A stretch of 64,000 nucleotides of DNA, taken from positions 12,896,001-12,960,000 of the forward strand of contig OZ038456.1 in assembly GCA_964036195.1 (NCBI GenBank), written 5' to 3'. Shown here in pieces: positions 5,821 to 61,144 of the stretch. The notes beneath the pieces were generated by a model, which worked only from the letters and a program-made list of their open reading frames with translations, did not search any database and was not told the DNA's origin. The DNA comes from Sphaerolaimus hirsutus (lineage: Eukaryota; Nematoda; Chromadorea; Monhysterida; Sphaerolaimidae). The position numbers and the translations under genes were made by a program. The first letter of the stretch is position 1; every line of letters begins with the position of its first letter.

Positions 5821-6779
5821 CAGGGTTGGTTTTATAAAAATCATTCGTATACAAATTGTATAAAAATGTATTTTATTTTAATTTTATTCTTATTTCATTT
5901 TATTTTATTTTATTCCACAATGTTAATAAAATTATAAAATGGACCATTTTAAAAAAATTTTACAAAAATTTTACGGAAATTTTACAAAAAATCATAATCT
6001 TGCATGCAAGGTCAGAAAAATGTGAGAATTAGACCTAAAAATGAAAAATGTGTGACAAATTTTTCCATTACTTTGCAAAAGTTGCATGCAGTAGGTATTG
6101 TCAGCTGGTTGCAAGTGTAAAGTTACAATTATTGATAATACTGGTTTGCATTTTCTGTAGAAGGATTACTGGAGTTTGCTGGGTGCGTTTGTAAAATATC
6201 ATGCAAAGTGTCAATTGTCATGACAAATGTAAAGTAAGGAGGCAATTGACATCTCAAATCTCAAGCTAAGTATAATTGTCATGACAAATGTTGTGCAAAG
6301 TATAAATTGTGTATCTGAATCTTATGTTTTTGTTTCCAAACCTTATGTTTAGGTATCCAAATCAATTTTATTTTGTATCCAAATGTTAATATTTTCAGAT
6401 TTGGATACAAAGGATAAGATACAGATACAATTTACTTCCGCTTTCATTTATATTTGTCATGACAATTGACACTTTACTTACCACTTGTCATGACAATTGA
6501 CACTTTGTATTTCATTTCATATGACATTTTGACACTTTACAGGGCTTGGGACTGCGCCAGCTCCGCGAATGAACATGTTGAACAATAAACAACAAGATAA
6601 CAATTTTACAAAAAATATGAATTTTTATACAATTTTTACAACAATATGAATTTGTATACAATTTTACAAAAATTCCAATTTTTATACAATTTTTATTTTG
6701 AAATTTTCCATTTTATTTTATTCTTACATTTTCCATTTTATTTTAATTTTATTTTTTTTCTGAGATTTTGCCAACCCTG
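5821..6779. mobile_element. hAT-like element with TTTTATTTTA sub-terminal arrays
   Basis: Starts CAGGGTTGGTTTTAT and ends ATTTTGCCAACCCTG. Flanks are GTTGTCAT (5813-5820) and GTCGTCAT (6780-6787), an 8-bp duplication with one mismatch. Arm B reads the uninterrupted GTCGTCAT at the same place, so this copy inserted after the duplication. Sub-terminal regions are AT-rich arrays (ATTTTACAAAA, TATTTTATTTT). The interior holds TGTCATGACAATTGACACTTT palindromes and a GGGCTTGGGACTGCGCCAG end of another repeat. No transposase. Confidence 0.8.
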
Positions 6780-8476: not shown

Positions 8477-8840
8477 AGCTATAACTTGGCATATTTCCAA
8501 GTTATGCTGTTGGTTGTTGAAATTGACCAATACGAATTCAACTGCACGCACGCAGATGCCACCCGTTTTATGGTGCACCGGTCAGAGAGCGGAGGATTTG
8601 GGCAGAATTTTTTAGGGGACCATTTGACAGCGTGTATTGCTGCCAAATGTGATCGTTTGATTTTTTTTAATCTCTTGCATTTACAGAGATCTCTGCCGTC
8701 AAATTTATCGCTTTACGGTTTTTTGAAAATGTTTTATCGTGTATTTTGTCCCCCCCCCAAATACGTATTTTTGGGGTTTTGTTCGGAACATTCAGGAATT
8801 GTTCACCTCGGAACCGGTAAAAAAATGTTTTGCAGTCAGT

Positions 8841-11800
8841 ATGCAATTTCTTTTTGATGTGTTTGTTTGGTGCTCGTTTTTTGGCAATTACATGAAGATT
8901 TTTCGCGTGAACTGGAAGTCAAGAATTGAATTTACTGTGTTCAAATTATTCATCTGCGTGCTGGTATTGCACTGCGCTCCGACGTTTGCGATTACACCGC
9001 AAATTACAAATAACGTAAAAATATCAGACATGCCGGTAGCAGCAAGCCTAGCGACAGGGGCATTTTTCGCTCAGTGCAGTCAGAGTAAGGTTAACACAGT
9101 GAAACATGGACATGATTTAACAGTCCTGTACCAGAACGTTAGATCATTACGCGGGAATTTTAACGCTCTAAGAGAAGTTTCGAGCAAGACGCAGTATGAC
9201 GTCATTTGTTTGTGTGAGGCGCAATGTCTTTCCGGCATGGATGCTCCGCAATTGAAAAACTATGATCGATTTATACGTGTCAAGTCAGACGCAAAGAAAA
9301 CAGGTGGTCTGCTGATTTACACGCATGTGAAGTGGCGGGGTGAATATGTCTCACCCAATAGACATGAAGATCACATAATGAGCGTTCATTTACAAAGCAA
9401 AACGGGTAGAGTAGGAGTGACGCTAGTTTACCTGGAAAACAATGGCAAGGCAAGCTGTTCGCAATCGATAATGGAAAATAACAAGTCAATTCTGAACACT
9501 TTGACGGATGTGATTGCAAAAAACAGATCGAAAAAAATCGAAACACTATTGGTCGGAGATTTTAACGGCCACATAGGGACCGGTAAATGGGGAATTCCGG
9601 GCAACACTGCGACATTGAACGCAAACAGTAAGGAAGTTCGCGATTGGTACAAAGAATCCGGATTAGAATTACTGAATAAAAAAATGTCCGGTTTATGGAC
9701 ATTTACGCGCCATAATTGTAGATCGATTATTGATCTGGTGCTTTTGGACAGTTGGCAAACGCGACTGATAAACGGTCGAATAGACGACGATGGGACATCA
9801 AGTCCGATGTCGAGTGACCATCACGCACTGGAATTAACTTTGCATTGGCCGGATTGTGAGGCTCGCGATGTAACTGCCCACTCGGCGAAAATTTCACTGG
9901 AGAAATTGCACCTGGAACAGTTGTCTGAACTCATGAATGATAACCCGCTGAACAAGGGAAACACACATTCGAGTTTCATTGATTCGATTCATGATTTAGC
10001 TAACAGGGTTGTGCCAATGACAACCAAGGGCGGGCGGCAAAAACGGGAAAAATACGACGATTATGAGTTAAAGCTGTCCAGGAAGGTTAATAAATCCCGA
10101 CAGCACTTAAAAAAGAATCGGATGGACAAAGAGGCCATTTTACATCTGCGTTTGGCACGCCTACATTTGCGCAAATACAGATGCGCAAAAAAGGATGAAA
10201 AAGAGTTACATTTCATAACTCAGCTGCAATATAACTGCAGTACGGCAGTAAAGCGCCTTTACAATCACATGAATGGAATGAAGGATGTTTCATCGAGGCG
10301 CTTTGCATTGGAAAACGAAGCGGGGCTAGTTTGCACCGAACCGGAAATACAACGGGAACAAGAACGGGCCTGGGACATTGTGATGTCTCCAAACCCGGGA
10401 TCCAAAAATATGGATGCGCGAAAATGGTTTGGCGGGGATATTATCAGCCCCAAATCAAAATCTGAGCTAACAAAACCGATTACCGAATTGGAAATTCGCG
10501 CGGAAATCAAAAAGTTTAAAAGCGGAAATCTGCTGGCACAACCAAAATGCCACATGAGGTTTTAAAGATCTTGGACCAGTCACAAATTCTTTGCCTTGTG
10601 ACGCTGTTTAATGACTGGTTCAACGGAGGCAGAATTGACCCCGATAAACAGCTGTGCAAAATGGTACTTTTGCACAAAAAGGGGAGTACTATGGACATTA
10701 GAAATTACCGTACTCTGGGAATTGGATGTAATGTAATGAAATTATACATGTCAGTTCTGAATAGGCGCACGCTTGACGCCTTCGAGAAAAATAACGGATT
10801 CGGTGACATTCAGGGCGGATTTCGTGGAAAGAGACGAACATTGGATAACGTCGTGATAATGCAGGCATGCAAAAGACACGCGGACAAATCAAAGGGGAGA
10901 TTAATCTCATGCTTCGTCAATGCGGTAAAGGCATTTGACCGCGTGAATAGAAAGAAACTGTGGGCTAAAATGGGTCACTTTGGATAACCATCAAAATTTG
11001 TGCAAGCGGTAGCAAATACCTATAAAAACCAAAAATGCATAATGACATTTGGCGACCACGTTAGCAAGGAAATGGAGTATCCCATCGGTTTGAGACAGGG
11101 ATGCTGTTGGCCTCCCACTGGCTTTATAATTTACCTGGCAGATTTGCGCTTCCACCTAGAGGCGGCTGACGTAGGAGCCAGATTTGGGCTGCATAAAATA
11201 CCGGCTTTATTTTTCACCAATGACATTTGCTTTTTATGCAATACGGAGTCTGATCTACAACGCACGCTGGACATCTTTTCCAGATGGAGTTGGGATTGGG
11301 ATGTGGCAATTAACACCACGAAGAGTTTTGTTCTGCGATGGGGACAAAAGGCAAACCCATCTAAAAAATGGAAACTGGGCTTTGACCATCACAAAAAAGG
11401 GATGTTCATTTCCGAAACCGACAAAATAAAATATCTCGGTGTGACTCTAACTAGTGCTCGTGACACCTTCGAAGAACACAGGAAAAATGCCATGCGGAAA
11501 GCTGAACGGCTGGGTGAACTGTGTCAAAAATCTGCGAGTTTGACAGATGCAAAATTCTGGTGCATAGATTTCGTGTGGAAACAATACACGGAAAGTGCGA
11601 TTGCGTATGGCCTGGAGGTGACCGGAATACGGCGCCCGCAATTGGAAGCGATTGATAAATCCTTCCTAAAGGCAGTTAAACAAAGTGTGGGGTTGCTCAA
11701 AACAACGTGTTCCGACGCAATTTGGTTTGATTTGGGCTGTGTTAAGCCGTCCGATCGGATTAGAAAGCACACGATTACGTATTCGGACTATTTGAGTGGA

Positions 11801-12445
11801 TTAATTGGAAATTTGACGAGATCTGCTTATGATCACTTGCGCGAGAATCTTCCCCGTCGTTCAAATGCGCTACAGCGGGATTTGATGGGCACTTGTGTCC
11901 CAGACAGGGTTGCGATTTACGCGCGCTTCTACAATTTCACGCCGAACGATGGAGCCCCGAGGAATAAGGCGTGGCTCAAAAAGTTGGTAAAAGTCCGATG
12001 TACGGATCGGCAACGGAACTTGATGGCGGAAAAGAAAAGTCAGTGTTATCGACTACATGATTTGGATGATGTTTTGCATATGCACAGCTTTTTGGGCCGC
12101 CATAGATGGTGGCTACAGGCACGGTACAATGCCTTACAAATTCCAAATGGAGCGCGCTGCATGGATTGTGGGCGTGACTCAGGTGGAGCGATACTGACAC
12201 CTAAGCATATATTACTGACATGCTCAAAAACACGCCATACGAACGCGAATTTGTTCGAAAAACAAGGCGATAAATGTCCTTGTCAAGCTTCAAGCATGGA
12301 CTCAACAACAGCCAAATTGCACTGGCAAACATCGGATGCTAGATGTCACAATCATCGCGAAATGATTTCGAGCTTGATATCAAAGCGTATCAAACACTGT
12401 GAATGGCAGTGTATGCGCCTTACGCACGGCACGTCAGATAGATAA
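8841..12445 (+). pseudogene. LINE ORF2: APE endonuclease plus reverse transcriptase, broken
   Basis: The endonuclease half (about 9115-9860) keeps all the usual blocks: LYQNVRS, ICLCEAQC, LLVGDFNGHIG, IIDLVLL and SSDHHALEL. It then frameshifts at about 10,527, and the RT half continues with IRNYRTLGIG, GGFRGKRRTLD, FVNAVKAFDRVNR (about 10913), GLRQGC, FFTNDICFLC (about 11210) and KYLGVTL. An in-frame stop lies at 10,985-10,987. The C-terminus has a C-x2-C...H-x4-C knuckle (12160-12220). The aspartates expected in RT motif A (FVD) and the first of motif C (ADD) are Asn, so this copy should be catalytically dead. It ends at 12,443-12,445. Clade is probably in the CR1/L2/I group; not resolved by eye. 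Confidence 0.85.
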
Positions 12446-15718: not shown

Positions 15719-17290
<1,572 letters not shown>

Positions 17291-18167
17291 TTTACTTGGG
17301 TTTTTTTCGAACGGTTTCTGTTATTTTTACAACAAGCGTCAGTTATTCCGATGGATCTTCAGTCGACAATCAGAGCTCATCAGGGGAAAATTAAGGTGTA
17401 TGGGTGATTGGTACTTTTCATTAAATTGTCTGAAAACGGTATGATGGAACAAAGATTACGGTACTCAACAGTGCTTTTATCAATACAGTATTCGGAAAAC
17501 GACATTCTATATCTACCGTAAACAAAATGAAAATTTATCTTTGTCCGAATCGTCAAGTTGAATGGAGCAAATATACGTAATTTCCCATTATTGGCATTTA
17601 GCCACGACACGGGTATTTATGTACTGTTACAAATCAATGGCGAGTTTTCCTTTTTATTGCGACTTTTGCATAAATTTTCCGAGTCTCAAAAATATTTTAG
17701 ATTACTGAATAGAAATACTCGGCAGAATGAACAGGAATAAGAATGAAACCAAATCTAAACGGAGAAAAATTTTATTTCGGGGACATTAAACTCAAAATGC
17801 AGAAAGAACGCAATATTCACCGGAGCTGTACAAAAACGTGTCCTATTTTTGGATCGGGTCATTTATGGCAACTTGGCCTACGTCCAATTTGCTAGTTGCG
17901 TAATGTACGAACGAGAGTAAAAGCTGCCTAATGCTAAATCGCTAAGAATTTGCTCCATTTTGTCAATTTTCATCGTCCTAGTGGGTATTTTCGTCTTTTT
18001 ACACAGTTTATAATGTATGTATTAATGGTCAACTTTTACAGCGATTTCGAAATCTTTGGCCGCCTGCCAACTTTTTACGTAATGGGGTATCTCGGCCATT
18101 TTCCTATGCAAAATCCCTTAAAAACACTAAAAAAATTAAATTATAAAAATATGGGCTGAGCACGAAA

Positions 18168-21100
18168 ATGGGCGACCAACATCAAGTGGCGGTTGTGAAC
18201 GCTGGCCGCGCGCCCGCCCAGCCGCCGAGACCGAACGTGCAGCTGTCATCCAGTGCGTTTCAGTGTCGTTTTTGTTACATTTTTCGGATGCGGGGTAGTT
18301 TTGTCTGACAAACTGTGTCACGGTTGGATGGTTGCCAATTTCCTCCATAAGTGAAACCTAGGACCTTTTTCCAGTATGTAGAGCAGAGACAAACCACGGG
18401 AATTGGTGAAAATTGTTGATTAATTACACTGCCCATTCTCCCATCCATTACGTGATTATTCACACCCCAATTTCCACGGCTTCCCACACGTCGGGGTTTG
18501 GTCTCTCTGGCAGATGTCCAAGAGCCCAGTCACATAAATTGTGCAATGAGGCCAGGCCACCGTCAGTGAGATCGAACCCAGGGCACCTCGCGCGATAAAC
18601 ACGCGCCATACCACTGAGCCAACCGCACACTTAACAGACTTGCTGTTAAGTCCCCTTTAGTAAGCGTTGTTAAGTCCCCAGTAAAGATGCAGTGATGCGT
18701 CTGATCGGCTGCACGCCCCATATACAGCCCCAAGTAGTGCAATCACTACTGCGTGTACGCATGTACAGCCCAAAGTAACCAGCCACACACCCTCACTTAA
18801 TCCGCCGCGCTGCACGGCTCTGCCGCTCCGCCGTATAAATACGCTCCGCGGCATTAATACGCCGGGCCGGTTTGTGCATGAATCGTCACTACCTGAATTG
18901 TCAGTTCCTGAATCGTCACTGTCTGTTCCGCATGTGTACTGAGCCGCAATCGTTCTTATATGCACATGGACTGAGTTGTCAATGTATGAATGGTCAAGAA
19001 TTGTCACTGGTCATTAAAGGAAATGCCGCCCGCCGTGTGCACACAATGTATTTACGTTTTGCGGCATGTTCTTTCAGTATTGAAAAATTGATTATCACTG
19101 CATTTCAGATTCAGTGAAAACAGTGTTCCTTATATTCTACCTTTTTGGTTGTAAACATATTTTATTGTAAACATATTTTATTGTAAACATAGAGAGAATA
19201 AATAAATTCTCAGTAAAAAATGTCTGTTTTTGTATAAACTATGGTTTAACAATTCTGATTTTTGTAAATTACAACAACAAAGAACAACCCTTTAACCATT
19301 TAATTTTTAACAACCCCAATTATAATTTGTGAAAAAACAACGTTTTTTATGACCCCGGTTGAAAATAAGGATAATCTTTTGTTTAGTGACAAAGTGGAAT
19401 TACTTAAAATTAATCTCCAATCTACAAAGGTGTCCACGCCGAAAGCACAGTGGGCTGGTGGAAGTACTTTAGTAGGCAGGTGGAAACACAGAGCACTCGC
19501 ATACGCATGCGATACCCACAAATATTTTGTGACCATTCATGCAAATGTTCATACGCTTTTTGACAATACAGATCTGTGTTCATTAAGGCGAGTGATCATT
19601 CAGTAAGTGACCATTCAAAAAGTGACAATTCACTGAGTGACGATTCAGGAACACACCGCCGGGCCGTACTGCACGCAGCGCGCCCGGCGCAGATGATGTA
19701 GGCTCGCCATCATGGTTTTTTCGAGCCAAGCCGACTCCGCGTCGCATGAGACGCGTTATTTCATATTTTTCAAAAAAGAAATTGGCACATTGCCCATTCC
19801 CCCTGGTTACGCCTAACACTGACGGGAGGCGAAACATTTCCACCTTTCAATCACACATTTCACCCATCCACTCAGCGTGGGCCTCGTGCGGCGAGGTGCA
19901 GCACATATCGAACCTGTCCGACGACCTGTCGCAGCTGTGCGCGTCCGACTTGTACGCCGATGTCACTCTGGTCGTGGGGCACAGCGAATATCCCGCGCAC
20001 AGGGTGCTACTCGCAGCTAGGAGCGAGTATTTTAGGTGGGTTTTGAGATATGTGAGGGTTATGGTAGAGGTTTATAAATGACCGCCTCTTCCGGCCGCCT
20101 GTCTGCGTCCTGGTATTTTTTTTGTTTACGTATACGTCTGTGTATTTTACAGATCCCTTACATTAAAAAAATAAAAATCGTACTTTTCAGGGCACTTCTG
20201 TACGGTGGCTTGCGTGAGACTGCGGCTGATAGAATAGAGCTTCACGATACACACGAGCAGGCATTTTCGGCACTTTTACGCTATATTTACACTGGCAAGG
20301 CATCGCTGACCAACCAAAAGGTGGTTAATAAATGTTTTTTGAAATAATAAAACACGTTCAGGGGTCTCCTAGATTTTGACCCTCCGGGGCTAGATAGCTG
20401 AGCGGCCTCCGGGATAGATAGATAGCTGGGCGGACATTAAATTTTCCTGAAAACGCTGACAGGTACTCCGAGGTACCTCCACCTAATATAACTTTTTCAC
20501 TCATTTGGAATCTTGCCAATTCCTCAAACATTTATCTGGAGTGGGCATAAAAGTGGCGAGTGGAAATTTGGGGGTGGGGGTAAACCTCGCCAAACCGCCC
20601 CCCCATTTGGTTTGGCGCATTTGAAAAACCGCTTGAAATTTGAAAAATAGTTTAGGACTGGTGTTCTCAACGATGAATACCCTGGAGAAATTCGGTTTTG
20701 CATTTGCAAACGTGCAAACATATGGATTCATTTACACCACTTCTCGCTTTTATATCACAGGAAGAGCTTATTTTGGAAATACTTGGCTTGGCGCACAAGT
20801 ACGGTTTTTCGGATTTGGAGAATGCAGTGTCCGAATATCTCAAAGTTGGTTTGTTTTCTCTGGCTGCCCGTCTAAATTTATTTTTCTCCTGCCCATTGAG
20901 GATATCTTTTCTACTTGTCGTTCGCCGCCAATTTGCAATTTTTTTAAATTCATTTTCACTGCGCAGGATCTAAAGCGTTTTTATAATCGGGGTCGTTTAA
21001 AAAAAAAATTCTCCATTTCTCCATTCAAAATTTTGTAACGTTTTTTAAATCAGTGTTGCTGTGTTTTATGTTGCTGCTCACTGTATTTCGATTTTCATCT

Positions 21101-24100
21101 TTTTATTCAAAGTATATCTTCAACAATTGTCGGTTACTATATCGAATCCTATCAAATTCCGACTATAATTTCAATGTAACTAAGGTGTTAACTAGGGTTG
21201 GAAAAAAAACGTTTTTTTTAACTCGATGTTTTTTTTTAAAAAAAAACGTTTTTTTTAAAAAAAAACGTTTTTTTTTAAAAGCTCCCAGATATGACCTAGT
21301 GTCAACATATATAGGTATATCAGACACTGGCAATACTCTGTGATGTTAAATATGACCATATAATGGCTGTGGAGCCATGGGATAGCATTATAAGTGGTGA
21401 TTTGTGTCAAAAATATCCATTTTTCGTCGACATATCGTTCGTATATCGCCTTATAGTCGAATGTTCGAGACTTCAGGTAAAGTTTGGCACGAAATGGTGA
21501 TCAAACAAGGTTATAAAAGGAGGTTGTTACTATGGGAGTGAAGTTACACACTGTGGAGGTACATGGAAGCACATTACCTCAATATTATATATTACAGCAA
21601 CATATGTCGGCTTATTCACCCATGGTAGCACATAGAAATGGATGTTTTGATACTAAAAATGCAACAAAACCAATGAAAACAACCACCAATGTCAATTTGT
21701 GTGTGAAATTGCGCGCTTGCGCGCAAAAATTTTGCAAAATACCCAGTGCTTAGTACTAAAAATAACGGCCGATGTTTTTTTTTTTAAAAAAACATTTCGG
21801 ACGTAGTGTTTAAAAAAAAAAAAAACGTTTAAAAAAAAACATCGGCCAACCCTAGTGTTAACACAATTTCCAAGTACCTTCAAAATTATATGAAAATATC
21901 GATATTATAATGTACGGGCTGAACTTTTCGAATTTATGCCCTTTTTATGCGGTTTATATTCAATTACTTCCGTGTCTTTAACAAAATGAAAAAGCACTCC
22001 CTCTGCAGGCCGTTTTGAACGCGCGCAACTTATGCACTGTTTTTGGCGCGTCGCATCTGTATTCGCTGGGATCGCTCCAAGCGCACTGTTTGCAATACGC
22101 CGACAGGGCTGCACCCGAAGTTCTTGCGAGTGACGGATTTTTACAGCTCAGCGTGGTGTGTCAACTTGTTTTTTACGCAGTATTTTTGACATTTTCATAG
22201 AGATATTGATAGAGATAATCGTGGGATTTGACCAGTATACAAGAGCACATGAACTTATAACGTGATATTTATGTACGTGGAACTTATGTCCCACTTTTGT
22301 TGATATATTCCGGACAGACGGAGTGAGATCATACCACACTCGTTCCAACCAGTACCATAACCATCATGGTCGTACCAATTCAATGTCCTTAATGTCCGGA
22401 TACGCCCACAAGTGGGACATAAGTTACACGGACATAAGTATCTTTTAATGAGTTCATGTGCTCTTGTATACTGCTGATTTGAAGTGGGGGTCACCGAAGC
22501 CCAAATGAGGGGCACCCTTTCTAGTGTGCACTTATTTCGATCTCGGGGCTCTCGGACAAAACCCTGGCGACCCCCTCCCCAACAATGAGGAAAAATTGCT
22601 TCACGCAGGGCGCCGTTGAACAGCTAATATCGCGCGACAGCTTTTGCGCGCCGGAAATCGATGTTTTTCGTGCGGTCAGGCATTGGGCTAAGACGAACTC
22701 CACCGGTTTGTATTTTTTCTTAATTTCATTTACAGGTTGAGAGCTGCACATGCATTTAAGAGTAGTCAGACCGAAGTTAAACATAACCAATTACCCAAAT
22801 TTGGTATACTCGGCGGACATTACACTTAGTATGGAAACCTACCATAACCCATCTGAATAATGAACAAAAAATTATACAGTTTTTCATCATAATATTTCGT
22901 TTTTACTATGGAAGAATAAATCACAAGATTTTATTCATCAAATTATGGTAGGTTTCTGCACATATTTTGCTGTCCGCCGAGATTTAAATGATACCCTGAT
23001 TACTACTTCAACCAAAATACTTAAAATATTCAAACTGTTTCACTTTTACATTATACACACAATTTTATCGACAAACCCTACCAGGTATTCAAGAGGACTG
23101 TCTCAAAAAACTGGTCGGTCATGTTCGATTGTCTCTGATGAAACTCGAAGATTTATTGAATGTTGTCCGACCCAGTTGTCTTTTCACTCCCGACTCCATT
23201 TTGGATGCCATCAAAGAACAGAAAGAGAAAAGGAGTTCTGAATTGAGATATAGAGGATTTATGAGTACGTTCTGTTTGGTTTTTGTTGCATGTTGTTTCT
23301 ATAATGTGTATACTGCAAATCGCACGTTTCAGTTTGAGTCAATATGTAGCCACATTTTCCATTCACATACATATACTCGGCGGATATCACACTTAGCATG
23401 GAAACCTACCATAACCCATGAATAAAAAATGATAGTTTTTTCATCATATTTATAATACATATTTCGTTTTTCTGTGGAATAATCTATCACAAAAATTTAT
23501 TCATTAAATTATGGTAAGATTCTGTACAAAGTATGCACTCCACTTCCTATATGCAAATTTTCCATTGGCAAACAAGTATTGCACACAAGTTTTTATGACT
23601 TTCGGATTATCAATATTTAAGTTCTGGCCTCCAAAAATGTCAATATCAGCTTTCAACAGAAAATGCCGCCAAAATGCGTGTCACAAATAGCGTTTAAATT
23701 CGAGCTGTCGAATAATTCACCGCAATGTTTATGAGCAATTTTCAATCGACCATTTTCAGTGCCCGACTTGAATTTGGCCACCTCCACGCAAGGTGCCCAA
23801 GTGATCGAAGGAGAATTAAAACAGGCACTTTTAAATGGAGATTCGCATAATTATGACATGGAGAGAGGCTTCACAAGACATCCCATAGAAGATAAAGCTA
23901 GCGGCATTGAGGTGGAGTTAGGTTCGTTTGAATTTTCTGTGTATGTGAGTGGATTATTTTTATATGTTTTCTTGCTGGCGAAATTTGGCTGTGTGTTTGA
24001 AATTTGCCAGGGGTTAGTTAGTGTGACGGTCTACGGCCACTCCCAGACCCTGTAAAATGTCAAATTCCGTGCAAATTTGTTAAGTAATGTAAAATGCCCT

Positions 24101-27100
24101 GTAAAATCTCAAAAAGATCACTTGGCGTTTGACATCTTTCGTGGCGTTTTGCATGACTTTTGACACTTTGCATGTCATTTAACAGATTACGGGGCATTTT
24201 GCACGGTCTGGGAGTTGCTCCTGGTGTAGTGATGATCAAAGCACTCAGATTTTGACGCTTTTACATCACCATTTGTGCGGATAGAATATGGGAGGAGAAA
24301 AGGAGTGCACTAAATACATATTTCATGTTTAGCAATCGACCATGAAAGGAGAAAAAACACCATCAAATGTTTTATACATTGCAAAAAATTATACTCACAC
24401 ACATTTCCAGGTCTGCAATGCATAATAAACCATATCCGCCTGTTGTTGTGGGATAAAGATTCCAGATCATATTCATATTTTGTAGAGGTTGGTTGTTGGT
24501 TCAAAAATGTCGCCTTTTTGTGTGTTTTTTTTGCTAAAAAAGGTGATTTTTGAATTCAGGTATCAATGGATAGACACGATTGGCGACGCGTCGTCGATCA
24601 CTCGGCTTTTTTATGCAGAAGTTGGCAAAACTTGTACTTTTCACCCGCTGTTGTCAGGTATTTTTACTTTTTATCGCTACTCACTGTGTAAAGTGTCTAA
24701 TCAAATTTGGCGTTCAAATTTAATTCAGATATATTCGAGTGGTTGGTACGCATAATACGGTAAACAAAGTGTTTCATCTGGTCACGTTGGAAGCTTATTA
24801 CAAGGAGGCCATTTTCAGCATCGATGATGTTACTGGCCTTATGAGTATGTTGTTACATTTATTTTGTGGAGCGAATAGACTGTGTTTTGGCACACTATGG
24901 TGCCATTGGCTTTTGCTGCTTTTTTCTTAGCTACGTTTCAGCATTTATGACACAAAATTTCAAATACCTGCCCCTGCCCGTGTAGTCACTATTTTCCTGT
25001 GTGTTTTTCTACCCCTATGCTACACCATTTATTTACACTATTTTCATAAAGTACAAAGTGTATTTTTTCATCGTTTCTTGAAGCAACTTACTTGTTGATT
25101 GAGGCATATTGACACCCCCCGCCTATTTACTGATTTTAACGTTTCAATAAAACGTCACTTTTTGACGCATATACATTCAATTTCATTTCAGTTGCGAGTG
25201 AAAATGTGGCGACAGTGGAACGCGCCGCATCTGTAATCGAAGGTGTTTCCCGGTCCAGAAACGCACTGCTAAATGGCGACACGCAGAGTTACGATTGGGA
25301 TAATGGGTGCGTTTTGTCTGGTTTGATTTGAAACACATACTAGCCTAGGTGTTTAATTATTTTTCTAAATCTATAGTCTGTGCAAGTTTTACAGCTCTTT
25401 TAATTGTAAATGGAACTCGGAAATGATTAATCGTATAAATGATCGGAATTATTTCTGGTGAAAAAGTCTGACAAGATGTAGACGGCTCGAAACCAACTGT
25501 ACAGTCAGGACGTGAATACGCAGGATTTTTGAGCGGGGGGGGGCGGATTGTATACGGAGCCGGGTGAACGGGGGCGCCCCCCTAAATGTTGGCCCTATAG
25601 TAAAGAAATGGAGCCATGGCGTTGGCTCCATTTGTAGGCGACAACGCATAGCAGTATTGGCGTTGGCGCCACCGTCTACTATATAGGTATCTTTATATAC
25701 CTATATTTCGTATTTACTAGAATCATGTTGGGTACCCGTCTCACGCTGTTAGATTCCGGTGATCATAGTCAAATACAGTCAATCATGTTTGTAGGCACTT
25801 CTAATTTTTTTTGGCCGCAACCGCGCAAATACCCACCCTTTGATTACTGGTGGGTGGGCTAATAATAGGATGGGTATTTGCGCGGTTGGGCGCAAAAAAA
25901 TGTGGAAGTGCCTACAAAATCGCTTTAGAAAACTGCCATTTCTGGCAAATTTTTAGGTCCGGGCCGGGCTGACCATTTCAATAATGAAAGTGTCATATTT
26001 ATAATGCGGTTGAAAATACTTCAGTGCACAAGTGATAAATCTCCAATTTCGATTTGCCGTGTGATCATTACTAGCTGGTAAATTCCTATGTGAACATAAC
26101 CAGCTATAATAAGCGTTTTGTCCGCCGCAGTTACACGTGCCACCAGCTGGGATCTGGCGCCATTGTCGTCCAGTTAGCTCAACCGTACATCATTTCCAGT
26201 GCGCGGTGAGTGCTCTCTTATTGGAGATAACTCAGTAGGGTGGCGCACGGTACAAATTGCGGTGAACAGTACGGTACTGTAAAAAAAAACTTATTTTGCG
26301 GTAAACGGTGCGGTACGGTACGGTAAATTTTTAATAGTGCGGTAAATGGTAGGGTACGGTAAATTTACCGAAATAGCGGTGCGGTGCGGTACATTCTGCC
26401 ACCATATATAGGACTCCGTTTATTTTAGTGGCGCTTTTGAGACGCGGAGACATTGAGAATATTAAACAGTGACATCGTTCCAAATCCAAACTCCGCCCAC
26501 TTGCAGTCTTCTCCTGTGGGACTGCGATGACCGTGCGTACAGCTACTACATTGAAGTGTCCACGGATCAAACGGTGTGGAAGCGAGTTGTTGACAGGTCT
26601 CTGCAAGCGTGCAGGTGCCAGTCCCAGACCCTGTAAAATGTCCTGTAAACTGTCAAATGTCATGCGAAGTGTCAAAAGTCATGTAAAATGCCCGGTAAAA
26701 TGGCAAACGTACGTTTGCAGGGCATTTTACGTGACTTTTACGGTCGACACTTTGCATGACATTTGAAAGTTTACAGGGCATTTTACAGGGTCTGTTACTG
26801 CCCCCAGGAGTTGGCAGACTTTGGTCTTTCACCCCGTTCCCGTTACGTTTGTGAGGATTGTGGGCACGCATAATACGGGTTAGGGCCTGGGGGTGCGACT
26901 GTGTTGTGGGTCTGTGTTGAGATCGTGATATTGAGGGTTAAGTTACGTATTTCCTCGAAATACCCCCAGGGGGTTTATTTTTCAGAGTACAAATTTCGAG
27001 TGGGTATTATTTCGTCGGAAATTTTCGTTATAATTCGTAGTAAAGAGTAGGGTTGGCCGATGTTTTTTTTAAAACGTTTTTTATTTAAAAAAAAACGTTT

Positions 27101-31887: not shown

Positions 31888-33285
31888 ATTGTGCATTGTT
31901 TTTTTTTATTGTTTTTTTGCGACTTTGAAGAAAAAAAAATGACCGTCTGCTGAGATTTGGGTTTGTGTGAGAAAATTTAGTTGATATGATAATGGGATGA
32001 GATTATGCCTATATGTATTCCATAATGCAGCCCGCGTATATTTGTACAGTCATTTTTACCCGCGCTGTGTTAAGTATAAGAATGTAAAAAATCGCAACAA
32101 AAGTGCTCGTGATGAACGCCGCGTAATTCAGAATTTCCAGATTTTATGCTGCTATTTATGGAAATGCGCCAGAATGACAATTTAGTAGAAATTCGCTATG
32201 GCGCCCCCTCTCCTTGGAATGGCGCCAGTGCCATAATTATCCATACTTTTTTGTAAAATCAGTGGACTATGTCGCGCTGATGCATTTTTCGTGTACTTTT
32301 TTTAGCATATGCAGCCATAGATTTTTGAATGCCAATATGCCATGCAATTTTTGGATAAGAGTGTACATAAGTGCTGTGTGAAGATTTGCATTTACATTCT
32401 ATGGTTCAAACTGGATTCTGGTCCCGATCCTGAAAATTTTTAAAATTGAAAACCTTTTTGTGCAAGATTCTTAAATCCCGATCAGGTGGCAATCCCACGC
32501 GCTGTAAAGTGTAAAGTAAAGTGTCAAATGTAAAGTCAAATGCAAAGTAAAGTGTCAAATGTAAAGTCAAATGCAAAGTAAAGTGTCAAATGTAAAGTCA
32601 AATGCAAAGTAAAGTGTCAAATGTAAAGTCAAATGCAAAGTAAAGTGTCAATTGTCCTGCAAAGTTCAGTAATAAAATCTTTTCTTTTTTGTTTTGATTG
32701 ACACTTTACTTTGCATTTGACTTTACATTTGACACTTTACTTTCGACACTTTACTTAACACTTTATAGGGCTTGGGACCGCCCCCATGAGACCCCAATCC
32801 CGATTCCGTAAACCCAAAAAACCAATCCCGATCCCGAAAAGTCGATCCCGTTTGAACCCCATTATTTACATTCATACTTCATCGTGTCTTTGTGTGTTTT
32901 GTTGCTCGAATATTTGATTTAATCCGCCTACTGTATTGCACGGTGATTAAGCGAACACGCGAACACTTGTCAATTAATATTTCTAGTTATTCCGTTACAT
33001 GTGGAAGTTGAAATATGTCAAAATATGTTTCTGCATATCCGGTCACAAATATACGAAGGTACACATTTTTACAATACAATATACGAAAGTATTTATACAC
33101 ATCAATTCAATAGTATCGCAGTGTTCAACAGCTAACCTTAATACAAAAAAAACTGTTTCTACTGGTCGTCAAGATAAATTGGTGTAGATGTTCACATAAA
33201 TATGGATATGTAAAAGCTAATTTGCAAAACGACAACTGCTGTGACCAGTTCTCAACCCGCCTATTTACCTATTTGGGTCTCAATG
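31888..33285. repeat. Intergenic repeats between BTBD9 and the K2P gene
   Basis: The two genes converge here, ending at 31,887 and 33,626. At 32,395-32,860 a GGTTCAAACTGGAT...ATCCCGTTTGAACCCC element of the GGGATC family is interrupted by another repeat beginning CAGGTGGCAATCCCACGC and ending GGGCTTGGGACCGCCCCC. Four tandem copies of a 31-bp GTAAAGTCAAATGCAAAGTA unit lie at 32,505-32,645. No coding exon is seen. Confidence 0.6.
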
Positions 33286-43044: not shown

Positions 43045-43220
43045 TACAGGGGTCACTCCCAGACCCTGTAAAACGATGTGTCAAATGTGATGCAGTGTCT
43101 GGCAAAAGTGTAAAATGTCGTATGATCAGTGAAAAAAAACATTTTACACGTTACATGACTTTCGACATTTTACATAACAGTTGAACTTTATAGGGCATTT
43201 TACAGGGTCTGGAAGTAGCA
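43045..43220. mobile_element. CCAGACCCTGTAAAA palindromic MITE
   Basis: TCACTCCCAGACCCTGTAAAAC at the left and TTTTACAGGGTCTGGAAGTAG at the right. The interior is TGTCAAATG / TTTACATGACTTTCGACATTT in mirror arrangement. Same family as 24028, 26615 and 50314. Confidence 0.75.
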
Positions 43221-43404
43221 CTAAATTTTAAATAGGCGCATAATTGATACCTAGGTACCGGAAATCCAAAAATTTCAATTTCATTTGGTCGATTTACGCA
43301 CTGACCTACATTTTACCTTTTACGTCTTTTTTCTCAACTTCGAATGCGCCAACCACATCTGGGACGAAATAAAATCAACCCGATACGCTTTTCTGGCGGC
43401 TCAA

Positions 43405-47479: not shown

Positions 47480-50400
47480 TCAATATCCGATGGCGATCGC
47501 CAGCACCCCCCACAGGACCCCCGTGCACCCCCCGACAATTTGATTGCTCCCATTATCATAGGTGCTGATCGTGCCAATTTGATGTTTTTCCGGCTGTCCT
47601 CCTTTGGATTCATCGTCCATATCGCTGCTGGATTTTAGTTCGTCGCCTGGAGTGAAATTTCACACGCCCGACATGGGTATTTGGGTAGCCGATTCATTGT
47701 GTTTCGAATTTAAGTGGCATCATGGTTGGCATTCGAAAAAATGGGTGATTATGAGAAAATATAATTAAATATTGGTGATTTCAGAAAATCTTTCCAAAAA
47801 TATACCTAATCGAATCTCTCTGGAAAAATGCAGAGAGATATTTTTTACATCTACTGCTGATATTATAAAATCTCCCTGGAAAACCATGTAAAATAGAAAA
47901 TATTAATAAATAGATAATTTTTGATATTTTCTGATATTTTATACGAAATCTCCCGAGATTTTCTCAAGGCTTAAACGATTACAATCGGAAACTCCAAATA
48001 TTGTACTATCCAAATAAACACCTTCCCGGACAAGTTCACCACCCATTTTTTTATTTCACTTCGAATGCAATATCTCCGTCCATGGGGGTGTTATAAGGCT
48101 GAAACTTTGTATATATTAAGTTGTAAGACCCTCTTACTCCCCAACAATGGGGGGAGGTGCGGCGACTCACTACAGGGTGGGTCACCCTATATGCAAAAAA
48201 AATTGTGGCATTTTTGGTGTCCCAAGCAAGTTCACCACCCACTTGATTAGCTACACTTTGAAGGCTATATCTCCAGCTGTGAGGGCGGTAGAAAGCTGAA
48301 ATTTATGGGATGTCTTGCCAACAACCCCCTTACAATACACCAGTGGGGCGGCTGCCGACGACCCACTAAAGCATGGGTCACTGCATATAAATTTGATAAT
48401 TTTTTTATGAACAACCCAAGTGTCCCAAACAAGTTCACCACCCAACTGCATTATAAAAAAATGTTGTGAGAACATACCTGATATAAAATTGAAACAGATA
48501 TGAACCCTAGTTCTGCTCATTAAAATGTTTTCAGTAGGGCACCCACCCTGTCCCATAAACAGCAGATTGAAAATTTCACGTTAAATTAATTTTTTGTATC
48601 ACACTTAAAAAGTTGGTTTACAAAGTTCACTAGGGGAGGGTCAAAGGTTCAAAGTTATGTAAAAAACATAACCTCTAAAATGCTTCCATAAGGAAATTTA
48701 TTTGGGGTGAATGACAAAGTGAAAATTTTGTCAAATTTTCTTCCTGAAATGACATCATTTTGACATGAAAGAATTCACCCCAAGTAAATTTCCTTATGGA
48801 AGCATTTTAGAGGTTATGTTGTTTACATAACTTTGAACCTTAGACCCTCCCCTAGTGAACTTTGTAAACCAACTTTTCAAGTGTGATACAAAATATTGGT
48901 TTAAAGTGAAATTTTCAGTCGGCTGTTTATGGGACAGGGTGGGTGCCCTACTGAAAAAAAATTTTTTTGGCTGAAATAGTGTTCCAGCCCGATTCATTTT
49001 TATATTAGGTATGTTGTTGCAACATTTTTTTAATGCAGTTTGGTGATGAACTTGTTTTGGGACAGTTGGGCTGTTTTTAGAAAATTGTTCACTTTATACC
49101 CAGTGACCCATGCTTTAGTGGGTCGTTGGCAGCCGCCCCACTGGTGGATCGTGAAGGGGGTTGTTGGCAAGACATCCCCCAAAATTCAGCTTTATACTGC
49201 CGTCACAGCTGGAGATATGGCTCTCGTAGTGTAGCCAATCAAGTGGGTGGTGAACTTGTTTGGGACACCAAAAACGCCAAAAAAATTGTTGCATATAGGG
49301 CGACCCACCCTGTAGTGAGTCGCCGCACCTCCCCCATTGTTGGGGAGTAGAGGGGTCTTACAACTATATATATACAAAGTTTCAGCTTTATAACACCCCC
49401 ATGGACGGAGATATTGCATTTGAAGTGAAATAAAAAAGTGGGTGGTGAACTTGTCCGGGAAGGTGTTTATTATCCAAATATCTAAAATGCGAGAAGAAAA
49501 TTATGCCGTGCGGCGTGCACGCCACGTGGAGTGTGCAATTCTGACAACATTAATCCGGCTTTCGAAAGACATGTCGGACTTATAAAATCTCGTCCCTGCT
49601 GCGTTTAGTGATGGCTCAGTTTCCTGGAATTTGGCGGGGTAAAAGGCTACGAAAGAAATTGCTTTTGAAAGAAAATGGAAAATTTTAGTGTTGAGTAACG
49701 TTTGTTGTAATTGAAATGAAACATACCTACCTACTAATCACGTAATTGGTGCCCCACACACTGTTGACATACATGACACGTGTGTCAACTGGTCTGTGTC
49801 AATTCAGATTTCAGCTTCACGTGTCCCAAAGCGGTCTTCAAATGCACTTGCCGTAAAATTTATTTTTCAACATTGCCGCATGTGCTTGGAGATCGCTCTG
49901 CGACACGTGAAGCCGAAATATGAGTTGACACAGACCAGTTGACAAACATGTGTTAACTAGTGTGTGGGCCGCCATTGATGCAAACTTGAAATTTTACTAA
50001 ATTACATTCAACGCCGATTTATGAGTACGCTAATTTGAGTTACTGTTTTAGTAAACTAATATGTGCAGATCCCAGATAACCACTTTGACGGTCACCGCCA
50101 TATCCATTGATCAATGTTTCAGCGCATAATTTCGTGTAATATACCGATGCACATTGGCATTCGATTGGATGTTAAGGCAGCATTTTTTCAACAAAAAAAT
50201 CTGTCACACAAAATGTGGTGAAAAAGGTGCAAAAAAAGCACCTGCGCATTGGGGACCCCCGCGTCGGACGTGTCACTGTCTTCATCCGTGCCGGATGTCA
50301 CATCAGCATCCATCTGGGGGCAGTCCCAGACCCTGTAAAATGCCCTGTAAAATGTCAAATGTCATGCAAAGTGTCAAAAGTCAACGTACGTTTGCCATTT

Positions 50401-51559
50401 TACCGGGCATTTTACATGACTTTTGACACTTTGCATGACATTTGACATTTTACAGGGCATTTTACAGGGTCTGGGACTGGCACCAGAAGAATCTTCGGTG
50501 CCATGTTATTGACGCTTGGGCTCGCGTGGCTGTTCGCCAGTGTCACCATGCTGTTGTTTTGCTGCCCATTTTGGTGGTCTGTGGAGTTTTCTGGGCCGTC
50601 TGAAGGGGGGGGGGGGCGACTCATTTTAGTTGTGTTGCATCTACCGTATTTCTTCTAATAGAAGCGCGCGGGGTTTTTTTCGGCAACTTTTTACCTGCCG
50701 TTCTATTTGAGGTGCCGTTCTATTGGAGGACTATTTCTATTTTTCCACACAGGTTTCATTTGAACATAGCTTAACTTATGAAAGATCAGAGCATCAATTC
50801 AAACAAAACAAATGTGAAACCAACCGTTCAATCATAGTTCTGGGTAACTTTGGGGTTTTTCTAAACACACATTTTTAATTTTTTTTTTTTGTGAATTTCA
50901 CTACATTTTTGCATCACTAAATGAAATTTTTATCTACCCCCCCCCCCCCCGCAACCTACCGCCATCCACTTTGTGGGGTGCCACCCCTCCCAACATAACA
51001 CCGATGGGCCTCTGTGCCTTGATGTGCATACTGGGGGGTGTGCCACTCATTTTGTCCACTGCCATCCCCATTCCACTTGGCTGCTGGCTTTCTTGGTTTT
51101 GACCAGGGTTGTTAAGATACGCTTGATGTTTACCGCCGGTTAAATACTTTCATAGATGTGTATTTTGGGTATTTGTGAGTTGGTTACTTCACATGACTTA
51201 TTTACAGGTTACACTTTCTGGGCATTTTAGCAACTGCAGTTTTGTTCATGTATTAAATATTTACATGGAAAAGCTTTCCATTATTTTTCCAGCTTAAAGT
51301 TTTTTAACAATTCATTAGAATTTTGGACTTTCTTTCCACCTTTTAGAGGTATCTGACTAATATAAATATGTATGCAGGATTTGTAAATTAGTTCAGCACA
51401 TTTTCCAAAAACAATGGTAACCAAACAATTGTGGATTTTACTTTGGACTGGTGCCAAATCGTCATCAGCTCCCATACCAAAAATATTTTGACAAGCTGAG
51501 ATCAATGTTAATGTTAGGAATATAGTGAGAATGGGGTGCCAGTTGAGTGGTGTCACCAT
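47480..51559 (-). CDS. Secreted, probably GPI-anchored protein of unknown function
   Basis: Six exons: 51559-51442, 51091-50960, 50599-50484, 50313-50242, 49623-49521, 47646-47480. All are GT-AG, phases agree, and the total is 708 bp (235 aa). The N-terminus is a signal peptide (LTIFLTLTLISAC). The mature part is hydrophilic, Met/Ser/Asn/Asp-rich and disordered-looking, with NST and NGS glycosylation sequons and two acidic stretches (TSGTDEDSDTSD; SSSDMDDES). The C-terminus DNGSNQIVGG is followed by CTGVLWGVLAIAIGY, short and hydrophobic with no basic tail, as in GPI signals. I recognise no family. Intron 3 is entirely an introner-like MITE; intron 5 holds a foldback element and intron 4 a GTTGACA MITE. 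The exon 5 donor (C|GTGCAC) is the weakest call. Confidence 0.65.
48017..49470. mobile_element. 1.45-kb foldback element in an intron
   Basis: Arms of about 700 bp are inverted: ACACCTTCCCGGACAAGTTC on the left against GAACTTGTCCGGGAAGGTGT on the right, with symmetry centred near 48,745. The flanks carry a 10-bp duplication TATCCAAATA (48007-48016, 49471-49480). A long-armed TIR element with a 9-10-bp TSD suggests a MULE/foldback type. A tandem module (GACCCACC...AAGTTCACCACCCA) is repeated inside each arm. No ORF of note. Confidence 0.8.
49748..49975. mobile_element. GTTGACA-type MITE
   Basis: GGTGCCCCACACACTGTTGACA on the left and TGTTAACTAGTGTGTGGGCC on the right. The interior is inverted too (CTTCACGTGTC... 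/ ...GACACGTGAAG). It lies in intron 4 of the secreted-protein gene. Confidence 0.7.
50314..50483 (-). mobile_element. Introner-like MITE forming a whole intron of the secreted-protein gene
   Basis: Read on the minus strand, the exon ends ...ATTCTTCTG. The element then begins GTGCCAGTCCCAGACCCTG and ends GGTCTGGGACTGCCCCCAG, and the next exon starts ATGGATGCTG. It is a near-perfect palindrome of TGTAAAATG / TTTGACACTTTGCATG units centred on ACGTACGT, like BTBD9 intron 14. The 170-bp intron is nothing but the element, and the GT and AG lie in its ends. Phase 0 on both sides keeps the frame open. Confidence 0.8.
50645..50765. repeat. CCGTATTTCTTCTAATAGAAG fragment
   Basis: Begins ACCGTATTTCTTCTAATAGAAGCGCG. 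The same end in reverse closes 4290-4395 (TTAGAAGAAATACGGTA). It sits in intron 2 of the secreted-protein gene. Confidence 0.45.
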
Positions 51560-56365: not shown

Positions 56366-56532
56366 AATACTCCTGACATGCACAGCGGGTAAACATGCAC
56401 AGAGGCACAGGCCCCAAAAATATCACTTTATAAGTTCATGTGCTCTTGTATACTGGTCAAATCCCACGATTATCTCTTTCAATATCTCTATGAAAATGTC
56501 AAAAATACTGCGTAAAAAACAAGTTGACACAC

Positions 56533-58497
56533 CACGCTGAGTTGTAAAAATCCGTCACTCGCAAGAACTTCGGGTGCAGCCCTGTCGGCGTATTGCAAAC
56601 AGTGCGCTTGGAGCGATCCCAGCGAATACAGATGCGACGCGCCAAAAACAGTGCATAAGTTGCGCGCGTTCAAAACGGCCTGCAGAGGGAGTGGTTTTTC
56701 ATTTTGTTAAAGACACGGAAGTAATTGAATACAAACCGCATAAAAGGGGCATAAATTCGAAAAGTCAGCCCGCACATTATAATATCGATATTTTCATATA
56801 ATTTTGAAGGTAATTGGAAATTGTGTTAACACCTTAGTTACATTGAAATTATAGTCGGAATTTGATAGGATTCGATATAGTAACCGACAATTGTTGAAGA
56901 TATACTTTGAATAAAAAAATGAAAATCGAAATACAGTGAGCAGCAACAAAAAACACAGCAACACTGATTTAAAAAACGTTACAAAATGTTGAATGGAGAA
57001 ATAGTGTTGAAATCTTTTTCAAACGACCCCGATTAAAAAAACGCTTCCGATCCTGCGCAGTGAAAATGAATTTGAAAAAATTGCAAATTGGCGGCGAACG
57101 ACAACTAGAAAATATATCCTCAATGGGCAGGAGAACAATAAATTTAGACGGGCAGCCAGAGAAAACAAACCAACTTTGAGATATTCGGACACTGCATTCT
57201 CCAAATCCGAAAAACCGTACTTGTGCGCCAAGCCAAGTATTTCCAAAATAAGCTCTTCCTGTGATATAAAAGCGAGAAGTGGTGTAAATGAATCCATATG
57301 TTTGCACGTTTGCAAATGCAAAACCGAATTTCTCCAGGGTATTCATCGTTGAGAACACCAGTCCTAAACTATTTTTCAAATTTCAAGCGGTTTTTCACAC
57401 GCAAACGTGTTCAGGGGTCTCCAAATGCGGGGGGGGGGCGGTTTGGTAAGGTTTACCCCCACCCCCAAATTTCCACTCGCCACTTTTATGCCCACTCCAG
57501 ATAAATGTTTGAGGAATTGGCAAGATTCCAAATAAGTGAAAAAGTTATATTAGGTGGAGGTACCTCGGAGTACCTGTCAGCGTTTTCGGGAAAATTTAAT
57601 GTCCGCCCAGCTATCTATCTATTCCGGAGGCCGCTCAGCTATCTAGCCCCGGAGGGTCAAAATCTAGGAGACCCCTGAACGTGTTTTATTATTTCAAAAA
57701 ACATTTATTAACCACCTTTTGGTTGGTCAGCGATGCCTTGCCAGTGTAAATATAGCGTAAAAGTGCCGAAAATGCCTGCTCGTGTGTATCGTGAAGCTCT
57801 ATTCTATCAGCCGCAGTCTCACGCAAGCCACCGTACAGAAGTGCCCTGAAAAGTACGATTTTTATTTTTTAAATGTGATGGATCTGTAAAATACGCTGAC
57901 GTATACGTAAACAAAAAAATACCAGGACGCAGCCAGGCGGCCGGAAGGGGTGGTCATTTATAAACCTGTACCATAACCCTCACATTTCTACAAAACCCAC
58001 CTAAAATACTCGCTCCTAGCTGCGAGTAGCACCCTGTGCGCGGGATATTCACTGTGCCCCACGACCAGAGTGACATCAGCGTACAAGTCGGACGCGCACA
58101 GCTGCGACAGGTCGTCGGACAGGTTCGATATGTGCTGCACCTCGCCGCACGAGGCCCACGCTGAGTGGATGGGTGAAATGTGTGATTGAAAGGTATTGGG
58201 GTGTGAATAATCACGTAATGGATGGGAGAATGGGCAGTGTTATTAGTCGACAATTTTCACCAATCCCCGTGGTTTGTCTCTGCTCTACACACTGGAAAAG
58301 GGTTTAAGGTTCCCAATCAGGAAGAAATTGGCAACCATCCAACCGTGACACAATTTGGCACAGACAAAATCACCCCGCCCAAAAATGTAACAAAAACGGC
58401 ACTGAAACGCACTGGATGACAGCTGCACGTTCGGTCTCGGCGGCTGGGCGGGCGCGCGGCCAGCGTTCACAACCGCCACTTGATGTTGGTCGCCCAT
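56533..58497 (-). pseudogene. 5' fragment of BTBD9 (exons 1-5), arm B
   Basis: Exons 58497-58401 (tentative exon 1), 58160-58001, 57845-57716, 57258-57175 and 56679-56533 match exons 1-5 of the complete gene in length, phase and protein: the BTB domain and the start of BACK, to LASDGFLQLSV. The duplication ends in the next intron, so the rest of BACK and both discoidin-like domains are absent. No in-frame stop was noticed in the exons. The proposed exon 1 donor reads GC (cagt|gccg) here where arm A has GT. Without downstream exons it can at best make a truncated BTB protein. Confidence 0.85.
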
Positions 58498-59370
58498 TTT
58501 CGTGCTCAGCCCATATTTTGATTATTTATTTTTTAGTGTTTTTAAGGGATTTTGGATAGGAAAATGGCCGAGATACCCCTTACTTAAAAAGTTGGCAACC
58601 GGCCAAAGATTGCGAAATCGCTATAAAAATTGACCATTGATTCATAAAACTGTTCAAATAGACAAAAATACCAACTAGAAAAATAAAAATTGACAAAATG
58701 GCGCAAATTCTTAGCGATTTAGCACTAGGCAGCTTTTACTCTCGTTCGTACATCACGCAACTAGCAAATTGGACGTAGGCCAAGTTGCCATAAATGACCC
58801 GATCCAAAAATAGGAAACGTTTTTGTACAGCTCCGGTGAATATTGCGTTCTTTCTGCATTTTGAGTTTATTGTCCCCAGTACGAAATAAAAAATTTTCAC
58901 TTAGATTTGGTTTCATTCTTATTCCTGTTCATTCTGCCAAGTATTTCTATTCAGTAATCTAAAATATTTTTGAGACTCGGAAAATTTATGCAAAAGTCGC
59001 AATAAAAAGGAAAACTCGCCATTGATTTGCAAACAGTACATAAATGCCCGTTTCGTGGCTAAATGCCACTAATGGGAAATTACGTATATTTGCTCCATCC
59101 ATCTTGACGATTCGGACATAGATGAATTTTTATTTTGTTTACGGTAGACATAGAATGTTGTTTTCCGAATACTGAATTGATAAAAGCACTGTTGAGTACC
59201 GTAATCTTTGTTCCATCATACCGTTTTCAGACAATTGAATGAAAAGTACGAATCACCCATACACCTTAATTTTCCCCTGATGAGCTCTGATTGTCGACTG
59301 AAGATCCATCGGAATAACTGACACTTCCTTGTAAAAATAACAGAAAACGTTCGAAAAAAACCCAAGTAAA

Positions 59371-61144
<1,774 letters not shown>

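Follow-up and report, generated by a model that had tools for sequence, protein, structure and literature searches.

A palindromic, introner-like MITE fills a predicted BTBD9 intron in the nematode Sphaerolaimus hirsutus

Two described systems lie closest to the element considered here. Introners are repeated elements that fill introns across genes, and in the accessible part of a 2022 survey they are recorded from only two animal groups (PMC9860276). The same source describes elements with terminal inverted repeats (TIRs) in which one splice site comes from the element and the other from the target site duplication (TSD), as in Symbiodinium and, in the reverse sense, in Chrysochromulina. The second system is the NuwaI group of PIF/Harbinger-like (PHIS) transposons, which occur in animals, average about 4462 bp, duplicate a 5'-CWG target and usually have GGG ends; the available portion of that paper contains no mention of intron use by these elements (PMC4482050). 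A literature search for co-mention of 'introners' and 'Harbinger' found a single paper, in which each word occurs once. Unusual acceptors have also been described. According to the part of the source available, human TG acceptors are alternative sites only, never the sole site, with an AG within 28 nt (PMC2374985). In work on non-canonical splicing in tunicates, introner transposons with weak splice sites are listed among the possible origins of diverging splice sites, and the accessible text of that paper does not mention TG acceptors (PMC13326754).

Here we describe a palindromic miniature element that fills a predicted intron of BTBD9 within a 64,000-nucleotide stretch of S. hirsutus DNA (the window). 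Similar to the surveyed introners, the element is repeated and fills predicted introns across genes, has TIRs and would divide the splice sites between element and TSD; the animal host and the C-A/T-G target, whose T version gives TG in place of AG, set it apart (PMC9860276). The BTBD9 element family is accordingly best regarded, from gene structures, as an introner-like family in an animal. Introners are already known, as is the division of splice sites between an element and its target copy; the new part is the animal CWG-target introner and its predicted TG-acceptor subset. In the history that we favor, with a probability of about 0.84, a BTBD9 exon received, at a CAG, a palindromic MITE of the PHIS/NuwaI type, the second target copy became the acceptor, and the whole element is spliced out.

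Structure of the BTBD9 intron

The predicted intron occupies positions 26615..26807 on the forward strand of the window, as do all features described in this section. Its fold and its relatives identify it as a single palindromic MITE copy followed by the right triplet (GTGCCAG...CTGCCCC-CAG). The 193 bp form one near-complete hairpin with a DNA minimum free energy of -74.9 kcal/mol, compared with -21.4 +/- 3.4 for shuffled sequences (z = -15.7); none of 200 shuffles folds as well, ruling out a chance palindrome. The hairpin arms (26614-26673 and 26746-26805) are 60 nt each and 88% complementary, with more repeats nested inside. Family alignment places the splice donor GT (26615..26616) on the left end of the element, GTGCCAG, while the opposite end is of the GGGGCAG type. 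An internal ACAG (26785..26788) contains an AG that ends 19 nt before the end of the intron. The sequence and the family pattern mark an exonic CAG at 26612..26614 as the left target triplet, and the CAG at 26805..26807, which contains the acceptor, is best read from the family ends as the second copy of that triplet. This direct repeat brackets a GT...CCCC core, and the final AG of the intron may therefore lie outside the element. The first-pass annotation had described a 193-bp intron made of one palindromic element, and its coordinates, GT and AG proved exact; its numbering as intron 14 did not hold, as this is the 13th intron by the 15 placeable coding exons.

The flanking exons were assigned by exon placement and homology. 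The upstream exon (26508..26614) encodes part of the second F5/8-type C domain and ends ...VVDRSLQAC-AG, and the downstream exon (26808..26878) begins R|SWQTLVFHPVPVTFVRIVGTHNT; together they encode ...LLLWDCDDRAYSYYIEVSTDQTVWKRVVDRSLQAC-R|SWQTLVFHPVPVTFVRIVGTHNT..., with the intron in phase 2. The proposed identity of the gene as BTBD9 is borne out by the joined peptide, which is free of gaps at the junction against all nine homologues chosen from 120 listed matches. One homologue (P0022) has an extra residue, but further downstream than the junction. Identity is at most 63% among the matches listed, which come from vertebrates, nematodes, chelicerates and others. The COX1 gene of the same genome, on contig C762, reads under genetic code 5, in keeping with an invertebrate host; among the 120 of 7999 COX1 matches listed, the named organisms are insects or groups that include insects, at 64-67%, and two other hits reach 89% and 79%. 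When the BTBD9 protein stretch was used to query the genome (7 candidates scored), both exons were placed at this locus; the third match, at 46%, is BTBD9's own first discoidin repeat, which is without an intron at the equivalent place. Segments of the BTBD9 5' locus containing BTB exons are also repeated in inverted orientation within the window (16856-22273 and 56415-59807, 91-98% identity). Reading through the unspliced element meets a TAA after 26633, and using the internal ACAG instead of the terminal AG as acceptor shifts the frame. A second, in-frame donor (GTAAAA) located 18 nt inside the element may act as an alternative site.

The two arms of the BTBD9 copy differ by 7.5% substitutions and 16 gap columns, indicating that the copy is not new. 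This divergence bears on the alternative that the element is not spliced and the allele is broken. Such a reading gains from the donor GTGCCA, which we take to be weak by consensus, yet a copy of this age would sit between two exons that both retain their frame and conserved residues, and the same arrangement is seen in other genes, making a broken allele highly improbable. It could also be proposed that an old BTBD9 intron hosted the insertion and that the leftover intron sequence was lost later. A larger BTBD9 intron does house a diverged relative of the element (24036-24223) without being filled by it; at the present junction, however, no base other than those of the element and the repeated CAG lies between the exons. 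The identical fit of sister copies in unrelated genes and the intronless first discoidin repeat likewise make the old-intron history unlikely.

The element family and the genes it interrupts

The genome (348 Mb, 762 contigs) was searched with the intron, and 40 of 4177 first-look candidates were scored. The resulting 80 matches represent 40 places on both strands, and hence at least 40 copies. The 39 other copies were retrieved with 3 kb of flanking sequence, or as far as the contig reached, and 26 of them align across intron bases 1-193. The 40 copies yield a palindromic consensus of 195 bp, the two halves of which match except at their tips (one reading GTGCCAGTCCC, the other GGGGCAGTCCC), and the copies average 95% identity to it. 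Within the window and the retrieved flanks there are 87 separate whole or partial copies at E <= 1e-8, the 40 among them. The family is short and non-coding, with terminal inverted repeats and a high copy number, and is consequently classed as a MITE.

A second full-length copy in the window is found at 50314..50483 (or to 50486) on the reverse strand, with CTG on its left and CAG on its right. This copy is intron-like in that the frames are open on both sides (NNMAPKILL|MDADVTSGTDED); a Pfam scan of its joined flanks gave no match. Diverged relatives of the palindrome are also present in the window at 24036-24223, 43047-43221, 32483-32786 and 6182-6560. No empty sites were found in the retrieved loci, where both members of each of four paralogue pairs contain the element; the L057 matches in that check are spurious, stemming from a truncated copy.

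The coding context of the family was probed by joining flanking sequence across 49 different copies, which gave 50 peptides (L029 is represented twice), and scanning the products against Pfam; frames were picked by eye, and certain copies are paralogues of each other. In 16 of the 49 copies, BTBD9 included, a match at E <= 0.01 crosses the junction in frame. Ten of these lie above the Pfam curated cut-off: GH63 (L010), 7tm_1 (L016 and L068), UCH (L034), nicotinic receptor (L035), GT92 (L041), OATP (the second copy at L019), kinase-like (L021), FLYWCH (L022) and RRM (L067). The six below the cut-off are BTBD9 itself (F5/8 C, E 4e-6), VWD (L011), FYVE_2 (L018), UDPGT (L027), SNF (L031) and Tmemb_cc2 (L038). 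An accepted junction-crossing match is absent from the remaining 33 joined copies. Matches that were not counted include L047 (E 0.0097, one of eight unrelated coiled-coil-like families matched), L042 (TPR repeats on either side of the junction), L020 (a PAN match beginning two residues ahead of the junction) and L065 (a PDZ match beginning just past it).

A set of 27 distinct antisense joins (28 peptides) gave no match at E <= 0.01 and two weak ones (E 0.035 and 0.041); the L043 join in this set, which by its ends runs in the sense direction, is also without a match. Alignment with PDB proteins is gap-free at the junction in six cases: OATP, natriuretic peptide receptor NPR1, ubiquitin hydrolase USP (weak), nicotinic receptor alpha-7, RRM and GH63 glucosidase. 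The UDPGT junction found no match in the PDB. An open joined frame does not discriminate between orientations, as at least 20 codons are open on each side in 42/49 sense and 37/49 antisense joins. At the level of gene structure, similar copies thus fill the predicted donor-to-acceptor span in unrelated genes, as introners do. The earlier proposal that the BTBD9 intron is introner-like and arose by insertion into an exon agrees with these findings: the intron is a copy of a MITE family found at 40 or more places, and insertion would be its simplest history.

Target triplets and predicted acceptors

It was initially thought that the element supplies both its own GT and its own AG. Of the two, the GT does belong to the element; the AG is better interpreted as part of the second target triplet, since a number of copies sit between CTG and CTG. 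In a first sample of 50 full-length copies, the left/right triplets are CAG/CAG in 21, CTG/CAG in 9, CTG/CTG in 6, CAG/CTG in 2 and other in 12; three of the latter (L010, L018 and L031) have a right end that is one C short and by eye are CTG/CAG, CAG/CAG and CAG/CAG, respectively. Left and right triplets are associated in this sample (Fisher p 0.039). Because the query ended in CAG, the sample is biased toward right CAG, and the analysis was repeated with an inner-only query. This second sample was ranked on the inner 156 bp and gave 40 places, of which 38 were examined (18 common to both samples and 20 new), with triplets read by eye. It comprises 15 CAG/CAG, 8 CTG/CTG, 6 CTG/CAG and 2 CAG/CTG copies, along with 7 that have other or incomplete ends. 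Where both ends are C[AT]G, 23/31 copies are matched (15 CAG, 8 CTG) and 8 are mixed, an agreement above chance (Fisher p = 0.018, or 0.017 after removal of three paralogue copies). The favored reading of the C-A/T-G triplet is consequently a duplicated target, the GT lying inside the element. An element that carries CAG itself, with no target duplication, is disfavored because right triplets follow left ones, although the mixed cases remain.

These observations are consistent with the following history. A DNA transposon, non-autonomous and close to a perfect palindrome, would land at a CAG in the BTBD9 exon and duplicate the target triplet, giving exon-CAG|GT...CCCC-CAG|exon. The element end that starts with GT would then serve as donor and the downstream target copy as acceptor, an arrangement that would leave the reading frame unchanged when the spliceosome excises the entire element. 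The target triplet itself thus seems to decide the acceptor in this animal family, and the CAG and CTG insertions together would form a natural experiment, asking whether TG suffices as the only acceptor.

Plain target duplication does not account for the eight mixed copies. Either selection for AG after insertion or triplets carried over from the donor site would suffice to produce them. In the latter case, the excised element would bring along the C-A/T-G of its donor site in single-stranded form, and the acceptor of a CTG/CAG copy would then travel with it, modifying rather than replacing the insertion history. Transfer of this kind may be likened to that of piggyBac elements, which proceeds without gap filling. 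Carry-over is in keeping with the existence of young CTG/CAG copies (for example L011, at 97.9% of consensus) and with the occurrence of both mixed classes, but the sample is small and selection for AG at CTG insertions also predicts an excess of CTG/CAG over CAG/CTG, leaving carry-over a doubtful addition.

The triplets also help to evaluate spread through RNA, in which a spliced intron would be reverse-spliced into other transcripts and copied to DNA, making GT...AG the mobile unit. Certain copies with CTG on the left but CAG on the right would suit such a route, as would the sense orientation of all 16 domain-spanning cases, although the antisense set comprised only 27 joins. The right-CTG copies and the left/right association point instead to target duplication in DNA. 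Together with the palindromic consensus and L045, a copy whose flanks are AT-rich and whose ends are altered, they render RNA spread very unlikely.

Among the 16 domain-interrupting copies, five end in CTG rather than CAG. Four are CTG/CTG, namely the second copy at L019 (L019:203-397, OATP), L021 (receptor guanylyl cyclase), L027 (UDPGT) and L067 (RRM), and one, L022 (FLYWCH), is CAG/CTG. Exact joining of the protein at these copies would need GT...TG introns. The nearest downstream AG is out of frame at 43 nt (OATP), 29 nt (L021) or 11 nt (L027) into the exon; it is in frame but inside the domain at L022 (12 nt, a loss of four codons) and L067 (36 nt, a loss of 12 codons). All five copies also contain the ACAG, with its AG ending 19 nt short of the element's end. 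Splicing at this AG would disrupt the frame, so that the productive acceptor would need to be TG. Arm divergence in the four right-CTG copies measured is 6.7% (L022), 7.9% (L021), 8.0% (L027) and 12.5% (L019), indicating that these four are not brand new, and despite this divergence the exons at right-CTG copies are open over the stretches read. Either TG acceptors would be used productively, or these genes would be broken or losing codons.

One possible, tentatively held explanation is that the downstream target copy is the 3' splice site of CWG-targeting MITE introns in general, such that insertions at CTG would create constitutive GT...TG introns. The built-in ACAG, 19 nt upstream, might mark the 3' region early, with the terminal TG then serving as the frame-keeping acceptor, and some CTG triplets might later mutate to CAG to yield the CTG/CAG class. 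Human TG 3' splice sites are comparable in having an AG nearby; in contrast to those sites, which in the portion of the source available are always alternative, TG here would be the productive site, as predicted from the genes alone (PMC2374985).

The MITE fits the PHIS/NuwaI type, and its transposase would presumably be of that type. Compared with the GGG start of NuwaI, its right end is GGGGCAG and its left end GTGCCAG. The putative duplication of a C-A/T-G (CWG) target would be a likeness to NuwaI as described in the accessible text, while GTG in place of GGG at one end, giving the splice donor, is a difference (PMC4482050). The genome contains 163 DDE_Tnp_4 matches, many near-equal in score and span; two of these loci were retrieved, and clear ends were seen only in L048. 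This locus holds an element of about 4.5 kb with DDE_Tnp_4 homology, GGGG ends and, by eye, CTG on both sides. Its ends are of the form GGGGTATTTCG (also read as GGGGTATTTCGAGGAAATAC), the right one having one C fewer. Its length is close to the NuwaI average given above, and both are flanked by CWG (PMC4482050). The L048 element shows that a CWG-type PHIS is present in the genome; its TIR is unlike that of the MITE, and no partnership is implied. An autonomous partner of the MITE would be expected to end GGGGCAGTCCCAGACCC, and a transposase with the MITE's own TIR (GGGGCAGTCCC) was not found at the two loci retrieved of the 163 matches. Elsewhere in the window, long open frames at 8727-12445 resemble by eye those of a non-LTR retrotransposon (endonuclease and reverse transcriptase-like), and positions of about 26945-26980, just past the exon that follows the BTBD9 intron, match the end of the L048 transposon by eye (GTATTTCCTCGAAATACCCCCAGGGGG).
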